Shown here: one piece after another, positions 30,967-40,161 of the stretch
How positions within the stretch are numbered: the stretch's first letter is position 1
Layout of the letters: each line of letters opens with the position of its first letter
DNA from: Gemmatimonas phototrophica
GTDB taxonomy: Bacteria > Gemmatimonadota > Gemmatimonadetes > Gemmatimonadales > Gemmatimonadaceae
DNA: 64,000 nt
Direction: 5' to 3'
Assembly: GCF_000695095.2 (NCBI RefSeq)
Contig: NZ_CP011454.1
Coordinates: 4,154,001-4,218,000, forward strand
Position numbers and translations under genes: made by a program
The notes under the pieces: model-generated
The model's input: only the letters and a program-made list of their open reading frames with translations
Databases searched by the model: none
Told to the model about the DNA's origin: nothing

Positions 30967-31837
30967 TCAGATACCGCCACGCAGGAAGGCGACTATCTCC
31001 GCGTTCATCTGTGCGTGAAAGGTGCGGCGATCGAAGCCCGGGGGGTCCTGCGAGGGAGGAAAATCCGGACGCGTCATGCTGGGCGGAAATGGTGTTTGAA
31101 ACGCATGATGTCCCGCATCGTCCACCACGATGTGTTTTACCCGTTCGGGGTGCGCGACTCCGCTCAGCACCAGATCGGCGTGAAACAATGGCGTGACATG
31201 ATCCTGTGCGCCGCTGTACATCAGGATGGGGACCTGCACCGGTGCCAGCGCCCCCGGCACCGTGAACCATCCGCAGGCGGGAGCCAGCAGCACCAGCCTG
31301 CTCACGCGCGTGTCTGGGGTGACCAGCACCGGCGTCACCGCATATGACGGCTGGTCGGGTGTCATGGCGTTGGGCACCCCGCCCGCCACGGCCAGTGCCG
31401 TATAGGCGCCAATGGAATGCCCAATCACGCGCACCCTGTGTGCCTTGGACGTGGTCCCGGAACACCGCATCCGCCAGCACCGCATCAATCGTGAGCGAGA
31501 GGTGCCGCGGGCGATGTGCCAGCATCGCCGCGGTGCCTGCCAGCGAGCTGTCGCTCCGACTGTTGCCCAGATGTTCAGGCATGGCCACCACACAGCCCGC
31601 GCGCGCCAGCGCGATGGCCGTATCACGATGCGTAAGCGGTGACCCGTTGTTGCCATGACTGATCACCACCAATGGCATGTCCTGCCCTGCCACTGGGGCA
31701 TCGGTCGCCACCGTCATGGTGTACGGTCCAAAGGACTGGTCCTGCCCGGACGAGACGGTGGGATACAGCACCCACACCGGCAACGTGACACCCTGCACGG
31801 CATCGGGCGCAGCGACACGGCGACAGCCGACTGTCAT
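30967..31837 (-). pseudogene. Alpha/beta hydrolase (dienelactone hydrolase-like), frameshifted
   Basis: Two overlapping frames together make one alpha/beta hydrolase. From ATG 31837 to about 31440, one frame gives the N-terminal part (VWVLYPT, MPLVVISHGNNGSPLTHRD oxyanion region, VVAMPEHLGNSRSD). The next frame then continues to 30967 with the nucleophile elbow RVIGHSIGAYTALA, VPILMYSGAQDHVTP and the catalytic His in DDAGHHAFQ. The join lies near 31430-31450 and needs one base removed (or two added). All catalytic parts are intact, so the break is recent or a sequence error. It is flanked by repeat copies C and D. Confidence 0.75.
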
Positions 31838-33175: not shown

Positions 33176-33433
33176 TCAGCACCACACCACCCATCGCAAC
33201 GGCGGAGCAGCCAAATACGGCGCGACAGACTGGCGTGCAACACCACGACCGAACCGCTCCACCGAGAGCTCCTGCGCAAGCTCCGGGGAGAGCACCTTGA
33301 CCACCACCTTGCGGCCATGGGTGTTGTCACGGGCCATGAACACGCGGCGCATCCCTCCCCTTCCCAGCTCACGCCCGGGTTGGAACGTAGTGCCGAGTGC
33401 AAGCCGGAGCGGATCGCGGAAGGAGGCTGTCAT
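33176..33433 (-). pseudogene. Remnant of a Ser/Thr protein kinase N-terminus
   Basis: From ATG 33433 the frame reads LGTTFQPGRELGRGGMRRVF, ARDNTHGRKVVVKVL and SPELAQELSVERF: the glycine loop and ATP-binding Lys of a Hanks-type kinase. After about 50 residues it passes into unrelated sequence and a stop at 33176; HRD, DFG and the rest of the domain are absent from the neighbouring frames. The stretch 33132-33545 otherwise shows no gene. Probably the leftover of a deletion. Confidence 0.7.
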
Positions 33434-33545
33434 GATGGGGATCATAACCGCTGGCGCCGACGGCCGCCGGATCGGCGGAACTCTTTGGCGATCGCCTTCG
33501 TAGGGAACGATGGGAATCCCTGTTGTCCCCTCATCCCGGTTGTCC

Positions 33546-34490
33546 ATGCTGACTGTTGCGCAGGTGCACCGTCGTTTTGCTCGGGTTCACGCCGTCAATA
33601 ACATTTCGTTCCACGTTTCGGCAGGGGAGATCTTCTCGCTCCTTGGGCCCAACGGCGCCGGCAAGTCCACGTTGCTCCGCATGCTGGTGGGCATCACCCG
33701 CCCGGACAGCGGACACATTGCGTGGCAGCTGGACGGCGCCACGCACACGCGGCTGCCGTCGCACGCCATTGGCTATCTCCCCGAAGATCGCGGTCTGTAT
33801 CAGGACCAGCCGCTCATTGCCGTCCTCGAGTATTTCGGCACGTTGCGTGGCCTCACGCCCGCTGAGGCCCGGGCCTCCGCCACGACGTGGCTGGAGCGTC
33901 TGGAGTTGGGCGCACGACTGCGCGACAAGGTGGGTTCGCTCTCCAAGGGGAACCAGCAGAAAGTGCAATTCGCCGCTGCGGTGCTGCACCGCCCGCGCTT
34001 TGTCATTCTCGATGAGCCGTTCAGCGGACTGGACCCGCTCAACCAGGAAGTCTTCCTCGGGTTCGTGCGTGCCTTGCGCGACGACGGTACCACGGTGCTG
34101 TTCAGCGCTCATCAGATGGCGTTGGTGGAACGTCTGGCCGATCGCCTGTTTGTCATGCAGCATGGCCGCGAAGTGCTGCATGGTACTATCCCGACAGTGC
34201 GGGAGCGCTGGGGAAGCGGGCGACGGCTGCTGTTGCAGGTCACGCAAAGCCCCGACGAAGCGCTGACCATCCTGCGTACGCACGCTGCTGCCAGTGACGT
34301 CGAGCGACGGGACGACGGCACCATTGTCATTACGCTCGACGCAGCACACCCGGTGGGGGACCTGCTGGCGCGCTGCGCGCAGCTGCTCAGCATCATCGAC
34401 GTGCGCACCGAACAGCCATCACTCCACGACGTGTACATCAATACCGTCGGTGCCGTAACGGCACCCACCGCCGCATCGGAGGACGCATGA
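33546..34490 (+). CDS. ABC transporter ATP-binding protein (NatA-like)
   Basis: A 314-residue ATPase. Walker A GPNGAGKST is at about 37-45, the signature motif is LSKGNQQKV, and Walker B is FVILDEPFSGLD, followed by the switch His in FSAHQM. The C-terminal 80 residues form the extension usual in NatA/DrrA exporters. It powers the permease encoded next (ATGA overlap). ATG 33546 matches the family start; ATG 33510 would add 12 residues. Probably exports Na+, a drug or a lipid; not determinable. Confidence 0.9.
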   Translation: MLTVAQVHRRFARVHAVNNISFHVSAGEIFSLLGPNGAGKSTLLRMLVGITRPDSGHIAWQLDGATHTRLPSHAIGYLPEDRGLYQDQPLIAVLEYFGTLRGLTPAEARASATTWLERLELGARLRDKVGSLSKGNQQKVQFAAAVLHRPRFVILDEPFSGLDPLNQEVFLGFVRALRDDGTTVLFSAHQMALVERLADRLFVMQHGREVLHGTIPTVRERWGSGRRLLLQVTQSPDEALTILRTHAAASDVERRDDGTIVITLDAAHPVGDLLARCAQLLSIIDVRTEQPSLHDVYINTVGAVTAPTAASEDA

Positions 34491-35686
34491 CGCGTTGGCA
34501 ACAGGTAGGACGCATTGCCCGCTGGGAGTTCAACCGCTTTGTGAAGTGGCGTCAGCAGGCCTACGGCATTCTCATCATGCTGGTCGTGGGTGGCATTTCC
34601 GGTGGCCTTGGGAAAATGGCCAAGGAAGCACGAAGCAAGCCGGCACGCGTCGCCGTCATCGGTAGTGACCGCCTGGGATTTGCCATGCCACCAGTGGATG
34701 GGGTGAGGTGGGTCGTCAATCAGTTCACCACCGAACCGCTGGCGCGGGCGGCCATTTCCGCCGACTCCATTGCGGGGGCGCTGGTGGTCGATGGTCCAGG
34801 CGCGGCGCACCTCGTGTTGCGCAAACGCAGCGCGTGGTCCGCCTCGGTGGCGCGTGCGATGACTGCTGCCCAACAGGCCGCGCTCTACACGGCTCTGCCG
34901 CTCGACGCCGCGCAGCGTACGGCCATGACCACGCCCTTCGCGGTAGAGGTCAGCACCATCACGCTCAAGAACGGAACCTCAGATTCCGCCACGCGCCTGT
35001 TTACCGGCATCATCCTGTTCTTCGGCGTGCTGGTCCTCTTCAACGGGTTTGCTTCGCTGTTCGCCGGGATTACCGGAGAAAAGCAGCAGCGCATCACCGA
35101 GCAGATCATCGCCATGGTGTCGCCGCAAACGTGGATGGACGGCAAGATTCTCGGGCTCGTTGGTGCGGCACTGGTTGGCACGCTGCTGTTTGCCGTGACG
35201 GGCCTCGCAGTCGCGAAAGTGCTGCCGGCCGTGCTTGGCAGTACCCCCTTTGCGATTTCGGCGCCCTCTGATCCGCTCTCCCTCCTCATTGTGCTCCTCG
35301 TGACGGTGCTGGGCGTAGGAATGTGGTTCTCGTTCATGGCCGCCATCGCGGCCACGATCGACGACCCCAATTCGTCTCCGCGCTCTGCCATGCTGCTCAT
35401 TCCCGTGCTCCCCATGGGGCTAGCCTTTACCCTGCTGTCCCGCCCCGACACGTGGCTGGCGCAACTGCTGGCGGTCTTTCCGCTCACTTCCATGGCGGTC
35501 CTGCCGGTGCGGTTGCTCATGACCAGTGTCCCGTGGTGGGAACCGCTACTTGCCGTGCTCCTGCTCGCGACCGCCACGTGGGCGTTCCGCCGTGCCGCCG
35601 GCAAGATCTTCGCCATTGGCATCCTCATGCATGGCAAGGAGCCGTCGCTGCGCGAAACCTGGCGCTGGCTCCGCGAAACGGAGTAG
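34487..35686 (+). CDS. ABC-2 type permease (NatB-like)
   Basis: A 399-residue membrane protein with one N-terminal helix (AYGILIMLVVGGISGG), a large extracytoplasmic domain (about 45-170), then five or six helices (LFTGIILFFGVLVLFNGFA, then LLIVLLVTVLGVGMWFSFMA, and others). That layout matches NatB/ABC-2_3 permeases. Its start overlaps the ATPase stop (ATGA). Together they form a two-component exporter, with the TIGR03790 lipoprotein gene following 22 bp later. Confidence 0.88.
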   Translation: MTRWQQVGRIARWEFNRFVKWRQQAYGILIMLVVGGISGGLGKMAKEARSKPARVAVIGSDRLGFAMPPVDGVRWVVNQFTTEPLARAAISADSIAGALVVDGPGAAHLVLRKRSAWSASVARAMTAAQQAALYTALPLDAAQRTAMTTPFAVEVSTITLKNGTSDSATRLFTGIILFFGVLVLFNGFASLFAGITGEKQQRITEQIIAMVSPQTWMDGKILGLVGAALVGTLLFAVTGLAVAKVLPAVLGSTPFAISAPSDPLSLLIVLLVTVLGVGMWFSFMAAIAATIDDPNSSPRSAMLLIPVLPMGLAFTLLSRPDTWLAQLLAVFPLTSMAVLPVRLLMTSVPWWEPLLAVLLLATATWAFRRAAGKIFAIGILMHGKEPSLRETWRWLRETE

Positions 35687-35708
35687 CGCGCCGTACATTG
35701 GCCAGAGC

Positions 35709-36836
35709 ATGTCGTTCACTTCTCTGGCCTCTCGTGCCGTCGTGTTGCTTGGTGGTGTCCTGATGCTGGGGTGTCAGGCACCACCACGCACCGAAAAACT
35801 CGCCCCGGCTACGGGCGCGCAACGCACCGTCGTTGTGATCAATCGGCGCAGCCCGGCCAGTGATTCGGTGGGGCGGTATTACGCGGCACAGCGCAACCTC
35901 GACTCGTCGCACGTGATCGTTATCGACGTGCCCGTTGAGGACGAGATTGGGGATATTGCCCTGCGCACCGACATCATCGCACCGGTGCGTCACGCTATCG
36001 AGGCGCTTCCGCACCGCATCGATTTCATCGTGCTCACCAAGGGCGTGCCTTTGCGGGTGGCCCGCAAGAACGGCTATAGCGTGGACGCCCTGCTGGCGGG
36101 CATGCACCTCAGCATTCCTCCCATGGTGGGACTCGACACCACCTGGCTGCGACGTTACCGCAATCCGTATTACAACGCGCAGCTGCCATTCAATAGCGAA
36201 CGCTACGGCATGTATCTGGTGACGCGCCTCGACTGTGCGCGCACGCTGGATTGTCTGGCACTGGTAGATCGTGCCACAAACGCGCGGCCGGAGACCGGAC
36301 CGTTCTTTTTCGATGCCATGCCGCTGCGCGAGAGCACCGACGGCTACGCCCTCATGAACCGTCGGCTCTATGCCGGTCACTTTCTGGTGCGGTTGCAGGG
36401 CTACACTGCCCACATCGATTCCAGTGCGGCCTTTGTCGCGACCACCGAGCCGCTCATGGGCTACGTCAGCTGGGGGAGCAATGATGCACGCTTTGACAGC
36501 GTGGCCTACCATGCCCTGCGTTTTCTCCCCGGCGCGCTGGCGGAAACGTTTGTCTCCACCAGTGCCCGGACCTTCGCCCCCGTCACCGGTGGTCAGAGCC
36601 GTATTGCGGATCTCATTGCGCAGGGCGTTACCGGCGTGAAGGGATACGTGAGCGAGCCCTACACGCTCGCCCTGGCGCGCCCGGAGATCCTGTTTGATCG
36701 GTATCTCCGGGGTGCCACCCTGGCCGAGGCGTTCTATGCCGCGTCACCCATGGTCCTGTGGAAGGACGTGGTCATTGGAGACCCACTGTGTGCGCCGTAC
36801 GCGCTGCAACTCACCGGCGGATTGGTGGGACGGTAA
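35709..36836 (+). CDS. TIGR03790-family lipoprotein
   Basis: A 375-residue protein with a lipoprotein signal (LLGGVLMLGCQA, lipid Cys about residue 22). The body matches TIGR03790: VVVINRRSPASDSVGRYYAAQRNLDSSHV split by short gaps, IDFIVLTKGVPLRV, MGYVSWGSND and a GVTGVKGYVSEPY stretch, resembling a caspase-like or peptidase-clan fold of unknown activity. It is anchored in the envelope. It follows the NatAB-like exporter closely and may be co-transcribed. Function unknown. Confidence 0.82.
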   Translation: MSFTSLASRAVVLLGGVLMLGCQAPPRTEKLAPATGAQRTVVVINRRSPASDSVGRYYAAQRNLDSSHVIVIDVPVEDEIGDIALRTDIIAPVRHAIEALPHRIDFIVLTKGVPLRVARKNGYSVDALLAGMHLSIPPMVGLDTTWLRRYRNPYYNAQLPFNSERYGMYLVTRLDCARTLDCLALVDRATNARPETGPFFFDAMPLRESTDGYALMNRRLYAGHFLVRLQGYTAHIDSSAAFVATTEPLMGYVSWGSNDARFDSVAYHALRFLPGALAETFVSTSARTFAPVTGGQSRIADLIAQGVTGVKGYVSEPYTLALARPEILFDRYLRGATLAEAFYAASPMVLWKDVVIGDPLCAPYALQLTGGLVGR

Positions 36837-36841
36837 GCCGC

Positions 36842-38767
36842 TCAGGCAGCGCGCCGCTGGCTCTCACCCCGGTGCAGGTGATTCTTTCGCACCGTAAACG
36901 ATCCCATCAGCACATTCAGGGCGTCGCTCTGACTGCGCAGCTCTTCCGACGTGGCGGCCGTTTCCTCCGCCGTGGCCGCTGATTGCTGCGTAATGACATT
37001 GAGCCCATCGACCGCCTCGGAGATCTGCGACACATGCTGCAGCTGTTGCGCGCAACGGGCGCTCACGGCCGCCATGATCTCCGAGAGCGATGCCACATGT
37101 GTTTCGATACCGGTAATCCCGAGAACGGCGCGATTACCGGCAGACACGCCATCCAGCACGGCCTGCACGTTCTCTTCAATGAGGTGACTGGCCTGCCGAG
37201 CCGATTCGGCGGCGCGGAGGGCCAACGCGCGCACCTCTTCGGCCACCACCGCAAAGCCGCGACCGGCATCGCCGGCGCGCGCCGCTTCCACGGCCGCATT
37301 CAGGGCCAACAGGTTGGTCTGGAAGGCGATCTCGTCGATGGCTTTGACCACGCGCGAGGTGGCATCGGCCCGATCCTTCATGGTGCCGAGCGCCTCGGAA
37401 AGCGCGCGCAGCTCCTTGGTGCCAGTACTGGTCGCAGTGCTCACATCCGCCGTGGAACGACGTCCCCGCTCCGCTTCCTCCGAGATGGTCATGGCATCGG
37501 CCCGCAACTCTGCGGTGCCGGCCGCCACTTCCTCCAAGCCGGCAGCCTGCCGCGACGCGCCGGTCGCCCCGACTTCCGCCGACTGGGCGATTTCGTTGCT
37601 CGCGCTGTTCACTTCCTCGGACGCGGCCTTCACCGCCCCCACGGTGGTTTCCAGGTGTGACACGGCATCAGCGAACGCCTGCACGATTGGCGCATGATGG
37701 CCGGTGCGATCGGCCGATGGGCGGACCGTGAGGTCTCCCTTGGCGAGGCCGCGAATCCCGAGGTGCAATTCACTCATGGCCACCGACATCGGTTTCAGGA
37801 CACCATCAAGCGCCTCATTCACGGCCTGCGCGGCTTCCTCAAAAGCCCCCTCGAACTGGCTGCTGTTGATGCGTGCATCCACCTTGCCTTCAAGAATGGT
37901 CGTTCCCAGCGTTTGCACTTCATCGGCCAGCGTACGGACCTTGCGACGGGTTTCGTTGTACGCATGCATGGCAATATGCATGTTCGCGATCATGGCATTC
38001 ACAGTGACCGCCAACTGCCCCAACTCATCGCGACTGCGCAGGGTGATGGGTTGGGTCACCGGTTCGGCGCGTTGGCTGGCATCGCCCTGCGCCAGCGCCC
38101 GCAGCCCATTGGTCACGGCCTTGATGCAGTGCTCACTCAACGACTCCGCCCGACGTTGTATGCTGGCGAGTCCGCGAATAATGCTTCGCGAGACCCCCAC
38201 GGCAACGCCCATACTGATGAGTGTGGCAGCCAGCAGAATGAGCTGTGCCGCGAGCACCGAACGCTCCGTTTCGTTACCGGCGCTCGTGAGTTCTTCGCGA
38301 GCAACGCGCACCTGCAGCGCCATCAACAGGCGCATGCCATCATCAAGGGCATGGTGCAGCGCCTCGCTGCGGACGGCCGCGGAGGAGTCACCACCGATCG
38401 ACGCCCGCGTAGCTGCCAGCCACTCTTTCATGGGGGTCCGCAAGCCATCCACCAGCTGCGACTCTTCTGCGGTCAGATAGGTGGCGAGGTAAGCAGTCTA
38501 TATGCTGTCCACCTGCTGCACCATGACCGCCGGTGACGTCTTCTCGGTGGAGCCGCCGGACGACGTCAGCCCATCGGTCACCGCATTGACGTTGTGCAGC
38601 ATCAACCCGAGTTGTTCGAGCGGCACCACGCGGTCGGCGAAGACGGTCGCGAATCGCGCCTGGGCACCGCGGGCGGCCTGAATGGGCTGAATGGTGGCAA
38701 CAACGGCCAGCACAATAGCCACGGCAAACGCGGCCAGCAACTTGGTGGAAATGGAGTGCAGTTTCAT
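36842..38767 (-). pseudogene. Methyl-accepting chemotaxis protein with in-frame TAG
   Basis: One continuous frame of 642 codons is interrupted by a single TAG at 38498-38500. Before it are 89 residues with membrane helix 1 (about 10-29) and the start of a four-helix-bundle sensor. After it the same frame resumes [15 protein letters not shown] and goes on through membrane helix 2, two HAMP-like units and the signalling domain with tip [25 protein letters not shown]-to-TAG change would explain it. A GTG at 38452 could restart translation, giving 536 residues lacking helix 1. Family sure; whether functional is open. Confidence 0.85.
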
Positions 38768-38940: not shown

Positions 38941-40161
38941 CTATTCGTAGCGCAGCGCCTGGATGGGATTGAGTGATGCTGCCTTTCGGGCCGGGTAATA
39001 GCCGAAGAACACGCCCACGGCCGCGGAAAACCCGATGGCGATGAACGCGGCGGAGAGTGGGGTGGACGTGGCCCATCCCGTGATCCGACCCACCACTGCC
39101 GCCCCGCCAATTCCCAGCGCCAATCCTCCAAGGCCGCCGAAGATGCTCATGACCACGCTTTCCACCAGAAACTGGGTCAGTACATCGGAGCCACGGGCAC
39201 CTATGGCCATGCGAATGCCGATCTCGCGCGTTCGTTCCGTGACCGACACCAGCATGATGTTCATGATGCCAATGCCACCGACCAGCAAGGAAATGGACGC
39301 AATGGCCGCCAGGAGCCCGGTCATGACGGACGCCGTACTCGTCGCCGCGGCGGCAATGGCCGTCTGATCGCGCACCGTAAAGTCGTCGGGCACATTTCCG
39401 CCGTTGAGTTGATGCACATCGCGCATGAGCTGCGTGACCTCCTCAATGGCCGCCGGCACCGCCGTGGCCGACGTAGCACTCGCCAGAATCTGCGAGACGA
39501 AACTGAAACCACTCAGCCGGTCCTGTGCCGTGGTGTACGGCACCAGCACCACATCATCCTGATCACTGCCGGTCGCCGTTTGCCCCTTGGCGTTCAGCAC
39601 ACCAACCACCACGAACGGTGAACGCCCGAGCTGCACGGTGGCTCCCACGGCATCATCATCGGCAAACAGATTGGCGGCGACGGTCTTCCCCAGTACCACC
39701 ACGCGACGCTTCGCCCGCACATCGTCGTCCGTGAACAGCGCGCCGCTGGCCACGCCCCAGTCACGAATCGTGAGGTAGTCGGTGGAGACCCCATTTACAC
39801 CAGTCCGCCAGTTTCCCGAACCGCCAATGATCTGGGTTCGCGTGACAATGACCGGCGAAATCGCCGAAAGCTGCTCGGCGTTGGCGCGCAGAAAGTCCGC
39901 ATCCTCCACGCGGAGGCGATTGAAGGTGCCCGCGCCCTGACTGGCTCCCCCTTGTGTCGTGGTACCGGCCGTGATGACGATCATGTTGGTACCGAGACTG
40001 CTGATCTGCCGTTCGATCTGCGCCTGTGCGCCGTTGCCGATCGCGACCATGATGATCACGGCGCCCACTCCAATCACGATACCCAGCATGGTGAGGGCGG
40101 TGCGCATCCGGTTCTTGAGGATGCTCTGGGCCGCGACTTTGAACAGAGTGGAGCTCTTCAT
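38941..40161 (-). CDS. MacB-type ABC permease (FtsX domain)
   Basis: A 406-residue protein: N-terminal helix, periplasmic MacB_PCD domain (about 45-250; MLGIVIGVGAVIIMVAIGNG and GTNMIVITAGTTTQGG), and three C-terminal helices of the FtsX type (ISLLVGGIGIMNIMLVSVTERTREIGIRMA region). It works with the ATPase encoded just upstream (ATGA overlap) and a HlyD-type adaptor. The full-length MacB is split here into ATPase and permease genes. Confidence 0.92.
   Translation of the reverse strand: MKSSTLFKVAAQSILKNRMRTALTMLGIVIGVGAVIIMVAIGNGAQAQIERQISSLGTNMIVITAGTTTQGGASQGAGTFNRLRVEDADFLRANAEQLSAISPVIVTRTQIIGGSGNWRTGVNGVSTDYLTIRDWGVASGALFTDDDVRAKRRVVVLGKTVAANLFADDDAVGATVQLGRSPFVVVGVLNAKGQTATGSDQDDVVLVPYTTAQDRLSGFSFVSQILASATSATAVPAAIEEVTQLMRDVHQLNGGNVPDDFTVRDQTAIAAAATSTASVMTGLLAAIASISLLVGGIGIMNIMLVSVTERTREIGIRMAIGARGSDVLTQFLVESVVMSIFGGLGGLALGIGGAAVVGRITGWATSTPLSAAFIAIGFSAAVGVFFGYYPARKAASLNPIQALRYE

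Follow-up and report, generated by a model that had tools for sequence, protein, structure and literature searches.

The closest described counterparts of the gene analysed here are Tar/Tsr-like transmembrane methyl-accepting chemotaxis proteins (MCPs) with a 4HB_MCP sensor, with which it shares two membrane helices, a probable four-helix-bundle periplasmic sensor, a HAMP domain and an MCP signalling domain. Its best sequence matches in the PDB were entries for MCP I (Tsr) (6s1k, 8c5v, 3zx6 and 1qu7), and the best fold matches of the modelled sensor were the ligand-binding domains of Tar and Tsr, none of them significant (E>0.05). The gene belongs to Gemmatimonas phototrophica, a freshwater photosynthetic bacterium, whose photosynthetic reaction-centre genes (puf) are present in the genome. 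Pseudogenes usually make up 1-5% of the genes of free-living prokaryotes (PMC10580986), and the locus described below is a probable member of this class.

In the 64,000-nt stretch of DNA under analysis (the window; genome positions 4154001-4218000), the minus strand contains an MCP frame that extends from an ATG at 38767 to a TGA at 36842 and has a single internal stop (Table 1). A reading made from the sequence alone had described a 642-codon chemoreceptor frame with one TAG inside the sensor bundle; the stop was read directly, the coding sequence on both sides of it was intact and in the same frame, and the gene contained neither a second stop nor a frameshift. The full-length ortholog from the relative G013 aligned across the stop without a frame break, and the gene is thus more than a frame left open by chance in GC-rich sequence. 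Pfam searches of the part 3' of the stop identified the MCP signalling domain (PF00015, 110.4 bits versus a cut-off of 34.6) and HAMP (PF00672, 35.5 bits versus 25), with HAMP_2 (PF18947) falling just under its cut-off; this second HAMP-like segment (37676-37858, minus strand), which can be aligned with the orthologs, separates HAMP from the signalling domain. The first 89 codons matched 4HB_MCP_1 (PF12729) at 23.5 bits (E=4.5e-05), slightly short of the curated cut-off of 27, and the hydropathy profile contained the two membrane helices of the encoded receptor. The location claimed for the stop also held: a single-sequence structure model of the first 200 residues, built with tryptophan in place of the stop, comprised helices at 4-68, 79-96, 100-124, 135-161 and 166-190 and, at only moderate confidence (mean pLDDT 74), assigned residue 90 to the second of the helices forming the periplasmic bundle. 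A sigma-70 promoter scan of the region, a method uninformative for this phylum, found no promoter.

Table 1. Features of the interrupted chemoreceptor gene (window coordinates)
Feature	Position	Strand	Content and basis
Whole chemoreceptor gene	36842..38767	-	640 sense codons, one internal TAG and terminal TGA; frame, Pfam, ortholog alignment
In-frame TAG, codon 90	38498..38500	-	TGG (tryptophan) in three intact orthologs; genome positions 4192498-4192500
5' part, 89 codons	38501..38767	-	Transmembrane helix 1 (~residues 5-31) and first part of sensor bundle; 4HB_MCP_1 match, hydropathy, model
3' part, 551 codons	36842..38497	-	Remainder of sensor, transmembrane helix 2 (~residues 169-193), HAMP, HAMP_2, MCP signalling domain; Pfam, hydropathy, PDB sequence matches
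536-aa ORF from GTG 38452	36842..38452	-	Putative product of a restart, without membrane helix 1; no distinctive ribosome-binding site

Three intact full-length orthologs were found within the same family, one with 58% identity over 634 residues (G013) and two with ~42% identity (G093 and G127). At the site of the stop, all three have the Trp codon TGG, within a motif D-S-[IV]-W-x-A-Y-L that reads D-S-I-stop-T-A-Y-L in the window gene, and more distant MCPs have residues other than Trp there. The ancestral codon 90 was therefore most likely TGG, converted by a G to A change on the coding strand, as judged from these alignments; the earlier proposal of a CAG to TAG change stands as to a single transition and fails as to the CAG origin. 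No ortholog was detected in G021 and G083, other closed genomes of the genus, where the best matches were more distant MCPs. A contig search for close relatives returned only distant MCPs (26-43% identity), with no second assembly of the species among the matches.

These data make it probable that an accessory chemoreceptor gene of G. phototrophica lost its function recently through a nonsense point mutation, and recent gene loss is the best supported of the readings first put forward, with sense-codon orthologs in three relatives, intact coding on both sides and no suppression machinery detected. In the proposed sequence of events, one transition would have turned the Trp codon in helix 2 of the periplasmic bundle into TAG; translation would end at codon 90, leaving an 89-residue product that contains a single membrane helix and a portion of the sensor, and the signalling-competent receptor would not be made. 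Such a loss would be tolerable, since 13 further MCP genes remain: the genome encodes 13 other MCP signalling domains, each within an open frame of 451-768 codons, giving 14 receptor genes in total.

The surroundings of the gene were compared across the relatives tested. The downstream neighbour (35526-36836, plus strand) had no Pfam match and a single ortholog among 30 relatives, in G002 at 61% identity, and the upstream neighbour, an ABC permease gene, was patchy in its distribution; together these mark the locus as accessory. A short ORF further along (33176-33547, minus strand) contains a glycine-loop-like stretch (GRELGRGGMRRVFMARD) and on visual inspection resembles a remnant of a protein kinase N terminus; a Pfam search of this ORF gave no match. 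At ~5 kb from the MCP gene, a frameshift near 31436 divides an alpha/beta-hydrolase gene (30967-31837, minus strand) in two; the two frames matched by the proteins of four relatives meet at this point. Either this hydrolase gene is broken as well, or the sequence has an erroneous indel. Counted with the chemoreceptor, the hydrolase gives 2 broken genes of roughly 46 in the window, which is inside the usual range for free-living prokaryotes (PMC10580986).

To estimate how long the gene could have been evolving without function, we compared the sequence after the stop with that of its relatives. In the alignment from HAMP to the signalling region, with column conservation computed over 49 relatives, the window protein deviated at none of the 52 columns that were at least 95% conserved and at 4 of the 72 that were at least 90% conserved, the latter against 7, 8 and 8 deviations in the intact orthologs. 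Relative-rate tests of the window gene versus G013, with G093 or G127 as outgroup, gave 60 versus 38 private amino-acid changes after the stop (two-sided P=0.03), and 58 versus 39 with the other outgroup (P=0.07); the corresponding counts were 125 versus 81 at first and second codon positions (P=0.003) and 117 versus 101 at third positions (P=0.31). Private changes before the stop were equal or nearly so, and the difference between the parts before and after it was not significant (Fisher P=0.17). Measured against G013, dN was 0.58 before the stop and 0.35 after it, with dS of ~1.1 and 1.3, respectively; synonymous sites are thus near saturation and the dN/dS values reflect the older, functional history of the gene. 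Furthermore, 2.2% of point mutations in this gene would create a stop, and by simple arithmetic the absence of any further stop sets only a loose upper limit on neutral drift, ~7% divergence (95% level). Together, the conserved columns and the relative-rate counts allow some relaxed constraint but argue against long decay. The good preservation of the 3' sequence implies that the mutation is young, that the downstream part is still made or that the base is wrong, and the intact invariant sites would equally fit a gene still in use or a base error.

Among the alternatives to a recent nonsense mutation, a sequencing or assembly error at the TAG in a gene that is otherwise intact is unlikely, though the most probable of them. 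A single substitution would suffice, the remainder of the gene keeps its frame and shows no decay, and the frameshift in the nearby hydrolase, absent from relatives, is possibly an error too; this last, however, is an indel, an error type other than substitution. The genome is moreover closed, in a single contig with 99.96% completeness, and long-read sequencing has confirmed the published genome structure (PMC11237797), a confirmation at the level of structure that says nothing of single bases.

Quite unlikely, in turn, is a restart of translation after the TAG that yields a truncated receptor of up to 536 aa lacking membrane helix 1, the signalling module of which would no longer sense via the bundle. 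The sequence-only reading had placed such a restart at GTG 38452; the in-frame ORF it predicted is present and keeps complete HAMP and signalling domains with the invariant signalling residues, and three in-frame start codons (GTG 38452, TTG 38443 and ATG 38431) occur within 70 bases of the stop. A supporting ribosome-binding signal, however, was not found: the predicted anti-Shine-Dalgarno energies of these starts (-2.4, -6.7 and -5.5, respectively) are not distinctive against the background within the gene (median -3.05, lower tenth -7.2). ATG 38767, the conserved start, is itself at -2.2, as weak as GTG 38452, which indicates that the measure separates starts poorly in this genome and that the weak GTG score is no proof against restart. 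The product would nevertheless be missing the N-terminal anchor in the membrane and roughly half the sensor, and the three orthologs are all full length. In a more elaborate form, the first 89 residues would make a membrane-anchored sensor fragment and a signalling part with its own start (at most 536 residues) would remain under selection, giving a two-piece or sensor-less chemoreceptor; this is in our view very improbable.

Equally hard to credit is leaky readthrough, in which a near-cognate tRNA would read the TAG often enough to give some full-length receptor. Bacterial pseudogenes reportedly give low-level protein output (Feng et al. 2022, as cited in PMC11078800), which would favour this possibility. 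The translation apparatus and the context of the stop argue against it, since none of the 47 predicted tRNAs of the genome, all of whose anticodons were read, has a CUA anticodon, release factor RF1 is present (466.6 bits versus a cut-off of 423) and no structured element or stem-loop follows the stop (RNA from the TAG to 38420 versus shuffled sequences, z=0.26). TAG is also a normal terminator nearby, ending 11 of the 45 likely genes in the window (picked by length and codon-position GC), among them the upstream neighbour (38941-40161). In an endosymbiont study, few pseudogenes reportedly had detectable protein (PMC13345370). Dedicated suppression of the TAG, one of the options originally raised for the stop, is contradicted by the same tRNA complement, RF1 and routine TAG termination; recoding through pyrrolysine likewise finds no support, as a search for pyrrolysyl-tRNA synthetase gave no match over the cut-off (best 22.2 bits versus 178).

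Annotators should either flag this gene as a probable strain pseudogene or check the base before including it among functional receptors, and the Trp found in all three orthologs provides a clear reference for any sister strain; beyond correct annotation the significance of the case is small. Set against known systems, the locus resembles recoded or suppressed UAG codons (pyrrolysine, amber suppressor) in having an in-frame UAG flanked by coding sequence, and is unlike them in that its genome has no CUA tRNA and no PylS over the cut-off, contains RF1 and uses UAG as a terminator. It differs from Tar/Tsr-like MCPs in its second HAMP-like (HAMP_2) segment and in the stop at residue 90. With the nonsense pseudogenes of free-living bacteria, from which we found no distinguishing feature, it shares a single point mutation, an otherwise intact frame, accessory status and several paralogs.
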